DNA from: Syntrophobacteraceae bacterium | GTDB lineage: Bacteria > Desulfobacterota > Syntrophobacteria > Syntrophobacterales > Syntrophobacteraceae | DNA length: 64,000 nucleotides | Reading direction: 5' to 3' | Assembly (NCBI GenBank): GCA_018053185.1 | Contig: JAGPLX010000003.1 | Coordinates: forward strand, 1-64,000 | In this document: positions 1-6,632 of the stretch, one piece after another | Numbering within the stretch: the stretch's first letter is position 1 | How the letters are laid out: each line of letters starts with the position of its first letter | Program-made: the position numbers and the translations under genes | Notes under the pieces: model-generated | Told to the model about the DNA's origin: nothing | The model's database searches: none | Seen by the model: the letters and a program-made list of their open reading frames with translations, nothing else

Positions 1-3000
1 TCATGCCCCGGCCTCATTGAAGCACCGCACGCATAATCTTGAAAACGGTGCGCATGACCGGTTTTCCGGGGCATTCATGCCCCGGCCTCATTGAAGCACC
101 GCACGCATAATCTTGAAAACGGTGCGCATGACCGGTTTTCCGGGGCATTCATGCCCCGGCCTCATTGAAGCACAAAAGGTCGGCAATGATATTCAGCCCC
201 AATTGAAGTTTTCCGGGGCATTCATGCCCCGGCCTCATTGAAGCTAGAGTGTTTCGGACACTCACGCGGAGTCCCTTCGGATGTTTTCCGGGGCATTCAT
301 GCCCCGGCCTCATTGAAGCAGCGATGCGGGTTCGGACAAATGGGAAAGTGATTTCGGGTTTTCCGGGGCATTCATGCCCCGGCCTCATTGAAGCCTTGTC
401 CTTGCCCCCAAAGTTCTTGAATCCCATAGCCGTTTTCCGGGGCATTCATGCCCCGGCCTCATTGAAGCGCTCGAATCTATACAGATCACCGAAACCGGCC
501 TGCAGGGTTTTCCGGGGCATTCATGCCCCGGCCTCATTGAAGCATTCACGGAGCCAGAACCACCGGCACTTCCCCAGAGGTTTTCCGGGGCATTCATGCC
601 CCGGCCTCATTGAAGCGCATGGAAAAGCTGGAATGCAAGTTTACCCTGGGTGAGTTTTCCGGGGCATTCATGCCCCGGCCTCATTGAAGCCACTCCCCTG
701 GCTGCCGCTATTACACTTGCCCCAAGTTTTCCGGGGCATTCATGCCCCGGCCTCATTGAAGCTCCTGCAGCCAGACAAGCAGCTCCTTGAAGAATACCAC
801 GTTTTCCGGGGCATTCATGCCCCGGCCTCATTGAAGCCTGCCGATCTGGACCAGGATGATTGGGCCGGAGCTCGTTTTCCGGGGCATTCATGCCCCGGCC
901 TCATTGAAGCACTGTCGAGGCCGAAGAATACGGGCGTGGGGCAAATGTTTTCCGGGGCATTCATGCCCCGGCCTCATTGAAGCGGCACAAAGTTCGTCGA
1001 AATTGAAAAAAAGCTCTCCAAGTTTTCCGGGGCATTCATGCCCCGGCCTCATTGAAGCCTTCTGCGGGCCTTTCGCTTTCAGACGAGACTGCCTGGTTTT
1101 CCGGGGCATTCATGCCCCGGCCTCATTGAAGCTGGTTTCACGCAGAATGTAGCTCACAACATTTCGGCAGGTTTTCCGGGGCATTCATGCCCCGGCCTCA
1201 TTGAAGCTGTGACGGTGGCTTGATGGGAGGTGAATGATGGCCGGTTTTCCGGGGCATTCATGCCCCGGCCTCATTGAAGCCGGCAATAGTCAGTTTGCTG
1301 TTGGCGACTCCCGCCATGTTTTCCGGGGCATTCATGCCCCGGCCTCATTGAAGCTCAAACTCCTGCCCAATCTCCCGCAGCGCCGACTCGACGTTTTCCG
1401 GGGCATTCATGCCCCGGCCTCATTGAAGCCGCCGATGAAGTGCGGCTCGAGGCCAGGCCTTCCTTGTTTTCCGGGGCATTCATGCCCCGGCCTCATTGAA
1501 GCTCCCAGGGCCTGGTCTTAGGAGACTTTAGCGTCTGGAGGTTTTCCGGGGCATTCATGCCCCGGCCTCATTGAAGCACGAAGAATGGCATGGGCACCAA
1601 ATTGGCATCCAGGTCGTTTTCCGGGGCATTCATGCCCCGGCCTCATTGAAGCGGCCAGGGGTGGCATAGTGGCCTTGGGCGCCACGGCCGGTTTTCCGGG
1701 GCATTCATGCCCCGGCCTCATTGAAGCTCCCTCATCGAGGGAATTATCCCAGGAGAGCGTCCGGTTTTCCGGGGCATTCATGCCCCGGCCTCATTGAAGC
1801 CATCTACTGCATTTGCATCCTTCGGCAATCCGAGACCAGTTTTCCGGGGCATTCATGCCCCGGCCTCATTGAAGCGTGGATACTGAAATTGGTTCTAATA
1901 AATGGAAACGATGTTTTCCGGGGCATTCATGCCCCGGCCTCATTGAAGCTCCAACATGTAGACCATAAAAGCCAACAATTTCTTATAGTTTTCCGGGGCA
2001 TTCATGCCCCGGCCTCATTGAAGCGTTGTCTCCAGAAGCCGCCTTGGTTCCGCTCGTAAGGTTTTCCGGGGCATTCATGCCCCGGCCTCATTGAAGCTCA
2101 GTCAGTCACGGGCATCTATTCGACCCATACAATGTTTTCCGGGGCATTCATGCCCCGGCCTCATTGAAGCTCATTCCGCTCAACGCATAGATCACTCCAT
2201 TGATCCTGTTTTCCGGGGCATTCATGCCCCGGCCTCATTGAAGCCGGTCCCACGGCAGAACCTTTGCCCGGCTCGCGGCCCGTTTTCCGGGGCATTCATG
2301 CCCCGGCCTCATTGAAGCAGAACGGGGCTCAGAATACTGGATAAATTGTATGGGGTTTTCCGGGGCATTCATGCCCCGGCCTCATTGAAGCCTCGCAAGA
2401 CCCGAAGACCCAGACGCATTGAATTTGCGTTTTCCGGGGCATTCATGCCCCGGCCTCATTGAAGCCTTTGTGAGGCTGGGAAGGATGGTCGGGCTTTCGT
2501 GTTTTCCGGGGCATTCATGCCCCGGCCTCATTGAAGCATGTCCATCCAAGACGTGGGCCTTCCCGTTTTGGTGGTTTTCCGGGGCATTCATGCCCCGGCC
2601 TCATTGAAGCGGACAATGCTCACCCTATCACTTCAATCGGCGGTCGTAGTTTTCCGGGGCATTCATGCCCCGGCCTCATTGAAGCTTCGCTCATTTCCAG
2701 CTCCACTCACTTTAATTGACGTTTTCCGGGGCATTCATGCCCCGGCCTCATTGAAGCGATGCTTGATCGTCGGGGTCGAGTTCTCGAAGATCTTGGTTTT
2801 CCGGGGCATTCATGCCCCGGCCTCATTGAAGCGGTGCGGGAATAGCTTGAGGCACAAGGATTTCCTGTGGTTTTCCGGGGTATTCATGCCCCGGCCTCAT
2901 TGAAGCATAAGTTGCTGCGGTCTCCAGCCCCTTGATGCGGAGCGTTTTCCGGGGCATTCATGCCCCGGCCTCATTGAAGCGAAAGCTCCCGCTCGAGCTC

Positions 3001-3269
3001 CTCGGGGCTCTTGGCCTGTTTTCCGGGGCATTCATGCCCCGGCCTCATTGAAGCGATAATGCATCGAATGGCATGCGAAGGCTGGTGGCTGTTTTCCGGG
3101 GCATTCATGCCCCGGCCTCATTGAAGCGGCGATATCCACGTCCATGCGGCGCCCGGAATGAATGGTTTTCCGGGGCATTCATGCCCCGGCCTCATTGAAG
3201 CCATCGGGATCTGCGCATTGGCCGCCGCAGCCCCTACGCCTTTTTCCGGGGCATTCATGCCCCGGCCTC
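1..3269 (+). CRISPR. CRISPR array, 37-bp repeats, 44 visible spacers, open at left edge
   Basis: A 37-bp repeat beginning GTTTTCCGGGGC and ending CCTCATTGAAGC recurs about every 74 bp. The first copy is cut by the window edge (its last 23 bases are 1-23); 43 full-length copies and one truncated copy follow, separating 44 spacers of 35-39 bp. Each repeat holds a strong palindrome (CCGGGGC, loop ATTCAT, GCCCCGG). The last eight bases, ATTGAAGC, resemble the 8-nt 5' handle of crRNAs from several class 1 systems, so transcription is probably on the plus strand with the leader left of position 1. Decay at the right end agrees: the repeat at 2870-2906 has one C-to-T change (2881), and the last copy (3241-3269) has a changed first base and lacks its final eight bases. 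Subtype cannot be set without cas genes; none is in this window. Confidence 0.98.
24..134 (+). repeat. Duplicated spacer in the CRISPR array
   Basis: The spacers at 24-60 and 98-134 are identical over all 37 bases (both begin ACCGCACGCATAATC). They are separated by one normal repeat (61-97), so a whole repeat-spacer unit was duplicated. No other spacer pair in the visible array is identical. Unequal recombination between repeats is the simple explanation. Confidence 0.97.
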
Positions 3270-3358
3270 GAGCTTTGGGCCAAGGAGTTCGACTGAAGTT
3301 TTCGTAAACGCCCCGCCAAACCTCCGGTTAGCCGTCCCAACCCCGAAACGTCTTTTCG
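3270..3358 (+). repeat. Left copy of an imperfect inverted repeat bracketing the prophage fragment
   Basis: Starting at the base after the truncated last CRISPR repeat, this stretch matches the reverse complement of 6363-6452. Shared blocks include TCGACTGAAGTT, TCGTAAAC, CCCCGCC, CCAACC and CGAAACG, with small indels between them. The match fades at about 3350. Its first eight bases belong to a CGAGCTTT motif (3269-3276) that recurs at 6121-6128. I do not recognise the sequence. It could be a transposon terminal repeat or a duplicated piece of the array's original flank. Confidence 0.7.
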
Positions 3359-3397
3359 CTGGGCAAGCCCGCAGAAAAGCGGTTCGGTATCCGAAGG

Positions 3398-3559
3398 GTG
3401 AAAACCTCGCGCGAGGCCTTCCTTGTCATCGAGGGGCTGAAGGGGATGTTTATAAAAGCCATGAATGCGCGCCACGGGAAGGAGTGGTGGACGCTTGTTT
3501 TCACCGACCGCAGGATCGATCGATTCATAAAGGAATACTGCCCTAAGGAATACCGCTGA
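3398..3559 (+). CDS. Small phage protein of unknown function
   Basis: A 53-codon frame opens with GTG at 3398 and ends in a TGA that overlaps the com start (TGATG). The C-terminal half, containing GKEWWTLVFTDRRIDRF and ending in PKEYR, reads like real protein. The gene is probably translationally coupled to com. The frame is open further upstream, to about 3331, but there it enters the inverted-repeat sequence, so the true N terminus may have been lost at the insertion junction. I do not recognise a family. The ribosome-binding site before the GTG is weak, which also fits a truncated gene. Confidence 0.5.
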   Translation: MKTSREAFLVIEGLKGMFIKAMNARHGKEWWTLVFTDRRIDRFIKEYCPKEYR

Positions 3560-3735
3560 TGGATGCTATTCGCTGCAGGAGATGCGGAAGACTGCTCTTC
3601 AAGGGGATGGTCCTGCATATCGAAATAAAGTGCCCCAAGTGCGGCTACACCCAGATTATGCAAATCCAGGCGCAGCGATCTTTACAGCCACCAACCACAG
3701 AGGTCGAAAGCCGGCCGGCTGAGCACCAGGCATGA
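3559..3735 (+). CDS. com: Com-like zinc-finger translational regulator (Mu family)
   Basis: This 58-residue protein has the architecture of phage Mu Com: an N-terminal zinc knuckle with C6-x2-C9, then LLFKG, then IEIKCPKCGY supplying C25 and C28. In Mu, Com binds mom mRNA and relieves an inhibitory structure so that the Mom DNA-modification enzyme is made. Related Com proteins occur in many Mu-like prophages, often beside DNA methyltransferase genes. Here no mom or methyltransferase gene follows; the next gene is a secreted repeat protein. The start overlaps the stop of the preceding small gene. Identification rests on the Cys pattern and the LLFK/IEIKCP motif and is fairly secure; its present target is unknown. 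Confidence 0.8.
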   Translation: MDAIRCRRCGRLLFKGMVLHIEIKCPKCGYTQIMQIQAQRSLQPPTTEVESRPAEHQA

Positions 3736-3754
3736 ACTCAAAGGCGTTTTTCCA

Positions 3755-3819
3755 TTGACAACCCGCAATGCTTTGGGCCATTCATTTTGGCGCCCAAAGC
3801 TAAGACACAAGAAGGAGGT
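3755..3819 (+). promoter_or_regulatory. Possible promoter and hairpin before the secreted repeat protein
   Basis: A TTGACA hexamer lies at 3755-3760, with no good -10 box at the usual distance. An exact 8-bp inverted repeat follows: CTTTGGGC at 3771-3778 and GCCCAAAG at 3792-3799, with a 13-base loop. A strong AAGGAGG ribosome-binding site lies just upstream of the ATG at 3826. The hairpin could be an operator or a structured leader. Given the Com gene next door, an RNA-level role is conceivable but unproven. Confidence 0.4.
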
Positions 3820-3825
3820 TTGATC

Positions 3826-4158
3826 ATGGAAAATCAATTGGTCACCATGAAAAGATCCCTGGCGGCATGGATCCTCATATTTGCCATCTCGCTCTTGCCA
3901 GCGGCGTACGCAGCGGCCGCCGATCCGGCCGGAACGGCGCAGGACGTGAAGAAAGAAAAGAAGGAAAAGCAGGCAAGGAAGGTGATCTTTAAGGATCGCA
4001 GGGGCTTTCGCTCGGGAAGCGCCGAGATGCAAAACGGCAAGATCATCTTTAAGGATCGCAGGGGCTTTCGCTCGGGAAGCGCCGAGATGCAAAACGGCAA
4101 GATCATCTTTAAGGATCGCAGGGGCTTTCGATCAGGAAGCGCCGAGCTCAAAAAATGA
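3826..4158 (+). CDS. Secreted protein with three tandem 20-residue repeats
   Basis: This 110-residue product starts at ATG 3826 behind an excellent ribosome-binding site. Residues 1-35 form a signal peptide (MKRS... hydrophobic core ... AYAAAA). A short Lys/Glu-rich linker follows, then three units of 20 residues built on IFKDRRGFRSGSAE. The units occupy 3979-4038, 4039-4098 and 4099-4155. At the DNA level they are almost identical, with changes mainly in the first codons of unit 1 and the last codons of unit 3, so the expansion is recent. The mature part is strongly basic. The gene sits between com and the lysis genes of the prophage remnant and is followed by a terminator. I recognise no family. 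A phage-encoded exported factor, a repeat peptide precursor or a neutral passenger are all possible. Confidence 0.75.
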   Translation: MENQLVTMKRSLAAWILIFAISLLPAAYAAAADPAGTAQDVKKEKKEKQARKVIFKDRRGFRSGSAEMQNGKIIFKDRRGFRSGSAEMQNGKIIFKDRRGFRSGSAELKK

Positions 4159-4291
4159 TCTCCCGATGTGAAAATGAGGTTGCTTTCGCGCAGGCCGCGA
4201 GGTAAGTTGAAGCGACATTAAGATAAGAGCGCCTTCGAGCGCCAAATATGTGCCTGGGTGTGAAATTCCAGGCAGCCCCCAGAGGCCTTCG

Positions 4292-4330
4292 AGCCCGGTT
4301 TCCCCGCATGAGCGGGGGGCCGGGCTTTTT
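4292..4330 (+). terminator. Rho-independent terminator
   Basis: AGCCCGG and CCGGGCT flank a GC-rich hairpin (CCCCGC/GCGGGG inside) followed by TTTTTGG. It lies 130 bases after the secreted repeat protein gene and before the holin-like gene, so it should end the com-repeat-protein transcript. Confidence 0.8.
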
Positions 4331-4361
4331 GGTTTTCTGGGGGCCACAACTCGAATGGGGG

Positions 4362-4679
4362 ATGGTAAAGAAAATGGCGATCTCATGGTTAAAAGTCCTC
4401 AAGGCGGCTCCCGGGGCAAAAAAGGCGATTGATGCCCTGGTGGCCCCGGGCGCGAGCCAATCGAGCACCGTTTGGTACAATCTGGTGAAGGCCGCCTTCA
4501 CGGTGCTGGTCGCCTGCGGTGTCACCTGGCAACTGAGCGAAGAGGAGATGCTCACCCTGGGGTCCTTCCTTGCGGTAATGGTGCCGACTCTTGCAACCGT
4601 TGGCGACATGGTGGCCAATCTATGGCTGCGGGTGCGCACCCACGAGCCCCTTTCGGCCAAAGCGGCGAGGAGCGAGTGA
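4362..4679 (+). CDS. Holin-like phage membrane protein
   Basis: A 105-residue protein starts at ATG 4362, behind a run of Gs, and has two hydrophobic stretches: about residues 40-57 (AAFTVLVACGVTW) and 65-88 (LTLGSFLAVMVPTLATVGDMV). The tail is charged. Small size, two membrane segments and position after the regulatory genes and before the packaging genes match holins or holin-like lysis proteins of Mu-like phages, which permeabilise the inner membrane at lysis. An alternative ATG is at 4374. The frame is open back to 4248, but that part overlaps the terminator and is unlikely to be translated. No endolysin gene is visible nearby. The assignment rests on topology and context. Confidence 0.55.
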   Translation: MVKKMAISWLKVLKAAPGAKKAIDALVAPGASQSSTVWYNLVKAAFTVLVACGVTWQLSEEEMLTLGSFLAVMVPTLATVGDMVANLWLRVRTHEPLSAKAARSE

Positions 4680-4723
4680 GTGAGAAACAATAGTTGAAGG
4701 CCGATACCGGAAAATAGGCAGAG

Positions 4724-5041
4724 ATGAAAGAATATCTCGATGGGTTGAAGATCCTGGCGGATCTGGGTGGGGCCTCGGTAATCGCGGTGGTCGTGATAGT
4801 ATGCATATATCGGTTGCTCACAAACTTCGCGGTAGCCTTTATCGCCAATATGGAAAAGATCGCGACCTCGATGGGAGAGCAGGCCCGCAGCATAAAGGAC
4901 CTAAGCGAGTCATTGAATGAGACCATTGCCAAGGATAATGCGGAACACCGCGAGATTCTGCTCTCCATGCAGGTGGTGGGCGGAGAGCTCAAGACGCTGA
5001 TGCAGGAGATCAAATGCCTGAGGGAGGACATTCAGAAATGA
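4724..5041 (+). CDS. Small phage membrane protein with coiled coil (DUF2730-like)
   Basis: A 105-residue protein has one membrane segment at about residues 14-36 (ASVIAVVVIVCIYRLL) and then a charged helical region to the end, rich in E, K and L, that should form a coiled coil. Mu-like phages carry a protein of this size and design (DUF2730, Mu gp25 position) between the lysis genes and the terminase, and the order here is the same. Its exact role is not known to me. The stop overlaps the next start (ATGA at 5038-5041), indicating coupled translation. Confidence 0.6.
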   Translation: MKEYLDGLKILADLGGASVIAVVVIVCIYRLLTNFAVAFIANMEKIATSMGEQARSIKDLSESLNETIAKDNAEHREILLSMQVVGGELKTLMQEIKCLREDIQK

Positions 5042-5343
5042 TCCAAAAGGAACTGGATAGGCACAAAGACAATCACATCAGGATGCTGATCTTGCGCATC
5101 GCTTCCGCATCCTATCCCAATCCAGTGGATGCTCAGCTCGTGCGAGTGACCCTGGGAAACCTGGGATACCCGATGGATGAGCAGGACCTGAACTACTACC
5201 TGGCTTTCCTGGAGGAGCGTGGCTACATCAAGCTCATGAGACGGTCCGAGTTCTCGATCACGATGGTAGGCATCACGGCGGACGGCATCGATGTGATGGA
5301 TGAGCGCAAGAAGGATTGCTCGATAGGCTTTGGGGACAGATGA
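5038..5343 (+). CDS. Small winged-helix-like phage protein (VpaChn25_0724-like)
   Basis: A 101-residue soluble protein starts at ATG 5038, overlapping the previous stop. The pattern LILRIASASYPNPVDAQLVRVTLGNLGYPMDEQ..., then a predicted helix and a strand-like GITADGIDVMD tail, resembles the small MarR/ArsR-like proteins at the Mu gp26 position of Mu-like prophages. Function is not established for this family as far as I know. It is followed by the small terminase gene with an ATGA overlap at 5340. Confidence 0.6.
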   Translation: MIQKELDRHKDNHIRMLILRIASASYPNPVDAQLVRVTLGNLGYPMDEQDLNYYLAFLEERGYIKLMRRSEFSITMVGITADGIDVMDERKKDCSIGFGDR

Positions 5344-5853
5344 GCGCCAAAACGCAAGCCCGCGAGATGGCCTATAGAGTCTGGCGCGAGTGCGGGCAGA
5401 ACCTCTCGGAAACGGAGAGGCTGCTCAAGTGCGATCATGGCTTGCCCGTGAGCCGCCAGACCCTCACCGAGTGGTCCAAAAAATACGACTGGGAATCCAG
5501 GGCCGCTCGCGCCGAAGCTCTCGAGATGCGAAAGGCCGAAGCCTTTAGCGATGAGGCCATGCTCTCGGCCCTCCTGGACCAGAAGGAGCGCTATGAGGCC
5601 TATTTTGCCTCCCTGCAGGTAGGGCAGGTGGATAACCAGGCTCTTTTTGCCTATTCGGGGCTCCTTAAGAATCTGCTCGCCATGAAGACGGCCTCCGCAG
5701 GAAAGCGCGCGGGAAGTGGACCGCCCGGCCATCTTTCTTGAAGATCTGCAGTTCATCGCGTCAGCCCTCAAGGAGATCGACCCCGAGGGTCTCAAAGTGC
5801 TCGGGAAAAGTTTTGACGCAATCGTTTCGAGGTTTAAGGAAGCTTATGGCTAA
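5340..5853 (+). pseudogene. Small terminase subunit, frameshifted
   Basis: Frame 1 runs from ATG 5340 to 5741. It has a helix-turn-helix-like N terminus (MAYRVWRECGQNLSETERLL...SRQTLTEWSKKYDW), as in DNA-binding small terminase subunits. After about codon 120 the reading turns into low-complexity sequence (GKRAGSGPPGHLS). The natural C terminus is in another frame: from about 5710 to the TAA at 5851 it reads DRPAIFLEDLQFIASALKE ... SFDAIVSRFKEAYG. A one-base change near 5705-5715 therefore split the gene. The restored product would be about 170 residues, the usual size for this subunit. A sequencing error is possible, but the adjacent large terminase is broken too. Confidence 0.7.
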
Positions 5854-6130
5854 GATGCGTGCCAGGCCAAAGCTCACCGAATATGGCTTTGATAAGTGGG
5901 TCGAGGATCTAAGGACCTGGATACATGAGTCGGTCTCGCCTTTTGAAGAGGACTCGCCCGAAAAGCAGGCCGAGAGGATCGAGCGCGGCAGGCATAATAA
6001 GCTCTTCTTTATGAAGACGTATCTACCCCACTATTTCACTGTGGATTTCGGGGATTTCCATGAGGAGTGGAGCGAGCTGGGGGATTTGCGTGACGAGGTG
6101 GTGCTCATCGTCGCACCCCGCGAGCTTTAA
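5846..6130 (+). pseudogene. Large terminase subunit, truncated to its N terminus
   Basis: The ATG at 5846 overlaps the end of the small terminase gene. The 94-codon product has the N-terminal character of phage large terminases of Mu-like phages (RHNKLFFMKTYLPHYFTVDFGDFHEEW ... VVLIVAPREL). It ends where the ATPase Walker A-like motif of the family (APRE..KS type) should continue. The rest of the ATPase domain and the nuclease domain are missing. The break coincides with the second copy of the CGAGCTTT motif (6121-6128), and 24 bases later an orphan CRISPR repeat begins. Confidence 0.75.
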
Positions 6131-6152
6131 AGCTAACAGAACTCGCCCAATA

Positions 6153-6189
6153 GTTTTCCGGGGCATTCATGCCCCGGCCTCATTGAAGC
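6153..6189 (+). CRISPR. Orphan perfect CRISPR repeat
   Basis: All 37 bases match the consensus repeat of the array at 1-3269, in the same orientation, but this copy stands alone 2.88 kb beyond the truncated last repeat. The 24 bases between the terminase break and the repeat could be the remains of a spacer. No second repeat follows within the expected 72-75 bases. It is best read as the original terminal repeat of the array, separated from the rest by the inserted segment. Confidence 0.95.
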
Positions 6190-6632
6190 CCCTCATCCTT
6201 TGTGGTTTCAGGTTATTTCCAGGTGCGTCTTAGATTGTTTTCGGACCCTGATCCGTTCGAGCTTTTTCCGGCCTGCTTTGTATTGTCGTCGAAACGGTTT
6301 TTCGTGCATAAAGGTATAGCATGCACAACTCCGGCAGGTTGGTTCGGCGAAAAGTGAAAATCCGTGAAAACGTTTCGAGGTTGGAGTGACAGACCTGTGA
6401 TTCGGCGGGGATGTTTACGAAACTTCAGTCGACCCCACCGGTCCAAAGCCTCTTTCCATAGGGTGCGGGAATTGCCGGCCGTCTGACGAGTTGGGGGTGG
6501 GTTGGGTTCATAGGGCCCGGGGGGGCGGAGTAGGATGGGAAATCGAGGTGTCATTTTTGGGTGGACTTGGAGGATTTTGGCCGTGTAGAACCGCCGGCAG
6601 CCCGCTGCGACAACTAGAAAGAGCCAAAGACG
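6190..6632 (+). other. Gene-free stretch with the right inverted-repeat copy
   Basis: No convincing gene lies between the orphan CRISPR repeat and the porin. The stretch contains the right-hand inverted repeat (6363-6452) and a third CGAGCTTT at 6258-6265. A minus-strand frame of 113 codons (6213-6554) is open but has no recognisable domain, and part of it lies in the repeat, so I do not call it. The porin promoter must lie in the last 200 bases; I see no clear -35/-10 pair. Confidence 0.6.
6363..6452 (-). repeat. Right copy of the imperfect inverted repeat
   Basis: Read on the minus strand from 6452, this gives GGCTTTGG, GTCGACTGAAGTT, TCGTAAAC, CCCCGCC, CCAACC and CGAAACG in the same order as the plus strand from 3270. 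The pair therefore brackets about 3.2 kb containing the prophage remnant and the orphan CRISPR repeat. Confidence 0.7.

Follow-up and report, generated by a model that had tools for sequence, protein, structure and literature searches.

CRISPR arrays are known to gather repeat damage, insertions and deletions at their leader-distal ends (PMC4869251). The Mu-like phage DMS3, in P. aeruginosa PA14, transposes and deletes CRISPR regions under spacer self-targeting (PMC11406979). Solitary repeats carried by prophages are known candidates for RNA anti-CRISPRs, or Racr (PMC10651486), and phages have been proposed to integrate by recombination between their solitary repeats and those of an array (PMC8616872). 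The locus described here touches on all of these and is best read as a scar, left at the old end of a type I-G array by rearrangement and decay. The locus lies in the window, that is, the whole stretch of DNA analysed (64 kb), which is the first part of the 101.5-kb contig C31; this contig starts inside the array and belongs to a 2.63 Mb draft genome (111 contigs, 94% complete). The features on which the following description is based are:

1-3240, + strand: part of a type I-G array, leader-distal as oriented below, with 42 full 37-bp repeats and, at the contig start, part of another
1430-1465, + strand: spacer 19, a 32/36 match to L115:2996-3031 (minus strand), in a portal gene
3241-3269, + strand: damaged last array repeat (G1T; bases 2-29 match, 28/29; last 8 missing)
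3270-3373, - strand: inner part of a host intergenic repeat that is dispersed in the genome, about 104 bp, 82% identical to the copy on contig C106
3270-3276, + strand: heptamer GAGCTTT, at the left outer junction and again at 6122-6128
3372-3559, + strand: last part (C-terminus) of a Mu gp16-like gene, homologous to a phrog_286 protein and lacking about 115 N-terminal residues
3559-3735, + strand: Com-like zinc ribbon protein (PF10122)
4724-5041, + strand: phage gene, weak phrog_1009 match, with a collinear homologue in prophage L060
5038-5343, + strand: phage gene, phrog_436, with a collinear homologue in L060
5340-5853, + strand: gp27-like or small-terminase-like gene, frameshifted near 5690-5740, in one frame in its homologue L070
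5846-6125, + strand: N-terminus of a large terminase (Mu gp28-like), first ~91 codons only, cut at ...APRE
6126-6152, + strand: 27 bp of non-phage DNA, probably what is left of a spacer, phage homology stopping at about 6125
6153-6189, + strand: perfect stranded CRISPR repeat, an exact copy by direct reading and repeat search
6190-6237, + strand: trailer from the stranded repeat to the host dispersed repeat, from sequence reading
6238-6477, + strand: longer copy of the host dispersed repeat

The repeat (GTTTTCCGGGGCATTCATGCCCCGGCCTCATTGAAGC) corresponds to Rfam CRISPR-DR16. It is present in the draft genome in 43 exact copies and one copy with a single mismatch, all of them on C31 and on the + strand, while a reversed-pattern control gave 0 copies in the genome, so that a chance origin of these copies is excluded. 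This repeat was found in 0 of 38 other genomes of the same order; in a genome of the same genus, the contig ends within a gene neighbouring the locus. The array spacers measure 35-39 bp. The 3' end of the repeat is ATTGAAGC, an ending which, from known repeat ends, we take to mark the + strand as the crRNA strand; the leader would thus lie off the contig start and position 3240 would be leader-distal. Two identical spacer-repeat units (window 1-134, ACCGCACGCATAATCTTGAAAACGGTGCGCATGACCG twice) open the contig and may be either a real spacer duplication or an effect of the assembly graph at the contig end. At the other side, the last intact spacer (3202-3240) is 39 bp long, all the others having 35-38 bp, and the changed base of the damaged repeat adjoins it.

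The only Cas1 found in the genome is encoded on C79, a contig of 3.8 kb where an unassigned frame occupies the csb1 position and is followed by csb2 and then by a Cas4-Cas1 fusion that the contig end interrupts. The profile NF049935 (cas4g_cas1g) scores 454 bits on this gene, which the contig end truncates, against a whole-length cut-off of 560; TIGR02165 (Csb2) scores 108 bits, above its cut-off of 45; PADLOC calls Cas1g and Cas56g. On these profile matches and PADLOC calls, with both the Cas4g/Cas1g fusion and the Csb2 effector present in the genome, the partial operon is assigned to type I-G. C79 breaks inside cas4/1 and C31 inside the array, and the two parts would presumably be linked. 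As in the type I-G system with a Cas4/Cas1 fusion (PMC10504553), the cas4-cas1 fusion and csb2 share one operon, but here this operon is on a short contig and the array is elsewhere.

Beyond the array, the locus is a composite of host and phage DNA. The host component is an intergenic repeat dispersed in about ten degenerate copies of ~50-260 bp, 69-84% alike, in the window (3270-3373 and 6238-6477) and on C105, C106, C62, C53, C107, C45 and C49; it was not found in the same-genus genome and has no matching Rfam family. A tRNA gene is located near two of the copies (C105 and C106). The fragment at 3270-3373 is inverted with respect to the longer copy downstream. Its assignment to phage DNA was rejected, because its matches are host intergenic repeats and gp16 homologues do not contain it. 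The phage component carries collinear gp16-, Com-, gp27- and gp28-like genes. Its blocks are collinear with the Mu-like relatives L060, L070 and L028: the homologues of the genes at 4724-5041 and 5038-5343 follow in the same order in L060, a Desulfobacteraceae prophage, and the gp27-like gene is 55% identical to that of L028. Two further, unassigned frames lie between Com and the L060-collinear genes. A small protein encoded within the phage piece (3826-4158) probably carries a signal peptide and contains a 20-residue unit repeated three times, corresponding to 60-bp tandem repeats in the DNA (IFKDRRGFRSGSAEMQNGK); no family was found for it.

The phage piece ends abruptly inside its gp16-like and gp28-like genes, both complete in the relatives. 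The gp16-like homologue in L028 has 172 residues, of which the window piece is without the N-terminal two thirds. The start of the terminase is common to 20 viral contigs (58-74% identity), nearly all with the motif APREHAKST, from which the window departs after APRE. Among the marks of an intact Mu-like element, the locus has no transposase; neither Mu end was found for the piece at ~3372-6125, both of whose ends lie inside genes; and there is no 5-bp target duplication, the flanks being host repeat and spacer remnant. Since the genome holds no second terminase and the gp27-like gene is frameshifted, the piece is, as judged from its sequence, a remnant, that is, an internal and dead part of a Mu-like phage. 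A second copy of it was looked for and found neither elsewhere in the genome nor in the 38 relatives of the order. The INPHARED phage records gave no match for the gp27-like gene or the terminase piece, and a portal-family search gave no matches, but its control likewise gave none.

Three junctions separate these blocks in the assembly: damaged repeat to host repeat (3269/3270), host repeat to phage (~3373), and phage to the 27-bp remnant (6125/6126). The earlier note, written from the letters alone, had described a last array repeat keeping 29 bases and a perfect repeat standing alone on the same strand, and both descriptions hold; the stranded copy is 2.88 kb from the damaged one. It had also placed the phage directly after the damaged repeat, a position that is in fact occupied by the host dispersed repeat from 3270 to ~3373. 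The cut spacer that it had proposed before the stranded repeat fits the non-phage bases found there, with a length of 27 bp rather than 24. This stretch directly precedes the repeat, is shorter than the 35-39 bp spacers and is probably a spacer remnant. As a candidate protospacer match it was discarded, its best phage match being no better than those of shuffles. The heptamer GAGCTTT, shared by the two outer junctions and found a third time at 6259-6265 in the downstream host repeat, was noticed post hoc and would occur by chance in ~0.8% of pairs of random 16-bp windows; as a target-site duplication it was rejected, being not clean, with part of it native to the phage and to the host repeat, and it is kept as a coincidence without explanation.

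All array spacers were compared, ungapped, with a set of related phage loci (76 after removal of redundancy, 1.08 Mb). Spacer 19 stands alone, every other full spacer having at least 12 mismatches in these loci and the reversed, complemented and shuffled spacer controls at least 11. Its target belongs to L115, a Mu-like relative whose terminase is 69% identical to the first sequence of the profile. The L115 portal gene lies downstream of the terminase, and a portal gene is absent from the retained phage piece. The 5' flank of the spacer 19 target is GTC. The type I-G motif is TTN, so that the match would not be at a canonical site. The exact core of spacer 19 was not found in viral contigs. 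The spacer search against the phage family suggested in the earlier note did yield a match to a related Mu-like phage. Self-targeting of the inserted piece was considered and discarded, no spacer matching it beyond 12-bp chance hits, and further spacers against the phage family were rejected, only spacer 19 standing out. The 3' half of spacer 6 (469-506) has 19 exact bases in L078:6525-6543, a Mu-like contig, and spacer 15 has a 19/20 match in L069; neither extends to full length.

The most probable history, in our view, is that the leader-distal array was broken and illegitimately joined to a composite of host repeat and Mu-like prophage. The array would formerly have extended at least to the repeat at 6153-6189. 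This former continuity is supported by the stranded repeat being exact and on the same strand, with all the copies in the genome at one locus. This history also agrees with spacer 19 being directed at a gene of a relative that the retained piece lacks. The starting event may have been the insertion of a Mu-like phage close to or inside the array. A break in the leader-distal part would then have been repaired by illegitimate joining, in a single step or several, to dispersed-repeat DNA combined with a dying prophage, the joins cutting one array repeat after base 29 and a later spacer, of which 27 bp are left; at least part of one array unit would have been lost, and the phage piece would have lost both ends and acquired its frameshift. 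Two damaged blocks, each without both ends, imply more than one illegitimate join or the capture of an already scrambled prophage segment. The entry of phage DNA at the distal array end, put forward in the earlier note as the simplest reading, therefore stands in part: Mu-like DNA does lie between two pieces of one array, on the leader-distal side, but simple insertion does not account for internal phage ends, absent Mu ends and a truncated, inverted host repeat. As the left join is between the array and this host repeat, and the phage ends are internal, at least two illegitimate joins are required. Mu-like phages, to judge from DMS3 (PMC11406979), would be natural agents of such a course, though with neither Mu ends nor a 5-bp duplication here Mu transposition itself would be at most a plausible beginning. 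As for the repair, no Ku gene was found in the genome (94% complete), so that classical end joining is not supported as the route and was rejected.

Further points count against the scar reading. An uninterrupted-array relative was not found among the 38 other genomes of the order, and a damaged last repeat is also typical of a natural array end. With regard to function, crRNAs would derive from the intact leader-side units only; having no second repeat beside it, the stranded repeat would yield no complete crRNA, and the block should be silent in immunity. The locus is probably without function.

Among the alternatives, a chimera of assembly or of strains, in which array end, host repeat, phage piece and stranded repeat were misjoined, is the first to be weighed. 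The draft is a fragmented, metagenome-style assembly of 111 contigs, the contig begins in the array beside two identical spacer units, and repeats offer shared sequence. On the other hand, at most ~4-7 bases are shared at the three inner junctions, far under usual k-mer lengths, which means that reads crossed the junctions or were themselves chimeric, and the base composition is even across the blocks (54-59% GC). An assembly error at the junctions is thus unlikely.

We also regard as doubtful an active role of the array, in which spacer 19 would have targeted a Mu-like prophage in or near it, Cas3-type degradation and repair then removing distal units along with the half of the prophage that was targeted. 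Were this course of events true, CRISPR interference would have shaped the locus, and the untargeted part of the prophage would be a scar inside the array.

It is less probable still that the array naturally ends at 3241-3269 with a decayed terminal repeat, the repeat at 6153-6189 being a separate remnant that was never continuous with it across what is now the gap. The terminal repeat is truncated and changed at base 1, after an unusually long 39-bp spacer, and distal degeneracy is common (PMC4869251); nevertheless, no other locus in the genome carries GTTTTCCGGGGCATTCATGCCCCGGCCTCATTGAAGC, the stranded repeat is exact, on the same strand and just 2.9 kb off, and it is preceded by a piece of the size of a truncated spacer.

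That the stranded repeat arrived with the phage DNA as a phage-borne solitary unit, acting as a Racr, seems very unlikely. It does stand next to phage DNA, and its host possesses the matching system, but phage homology ends 27 bp before it, inside the terminase, and host DNA follows directly after it. None of 97 related phage loci has a repeat-like site above background (24/37, equal to the reversed control), a set of 2.9 million viral contigs contains no exact copy of the repeat, and no sigma-70-like promoter was found nearby. Furthermore, a solitary repeat unit should be intergenic in phage DNA with no other repeats near, and here an array of the same repeat lies 2.9 kb upstream.

The capture of the phage by homologous recombination between spacer and protospacer, as the earlier note's second possibility may be understood, is scarcely credible, for although the array holds a spacer against the phage family, spacer 19 is far from the junctions, its target portal gene is absent here, and the 27-bp remnant neither continues the phage sequence nor matches any phage above shuffles. 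The proposed recombination through solitary repeats (PMC8616872) does not fit either, since intact repeats should then stand at both joins; instead, the left repeat stops at base 29 and the right join falls within a spacer.

Taken together, the locus looks like the product of rearrangement and decay, not of a new mechanism. The decay of arrays at their old end is known, while the manner in which units are lost is poorly documented, and the three-junction scar suggests that array DNA can break and join prophage and host-repeat DNA with the far repeat staying perfect. It also carries a warning, namely that a perfect repeat standing alone next to phage genes may have been severed from the host's own array and need not be an anti-CRISPR RNA. 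The locus resembles the solitary repeat units of Racr (PMC10651486) in having a single CRISPR repeat adjoining phage genes, and differs from them in that the phage context is not intact, no promoter-like site is present, and the repeat is identical to, and beside, the host array. As with DMS3, the CRISPR locus holds DNA of a Mu-like phage whose family is the target of a resident spacer; in that case the deletions are bounded by phage ends, whereas here an internal remnant without ends is found and the leader-side array persists (PMC11406979). The truncated repeat, the lost units and the foreign DNA at the old array end are all features of leader-distal decay (PMC4869251), with the difference that, here, a perfect repeat persists past nearly 3 kb of host and phage composite.
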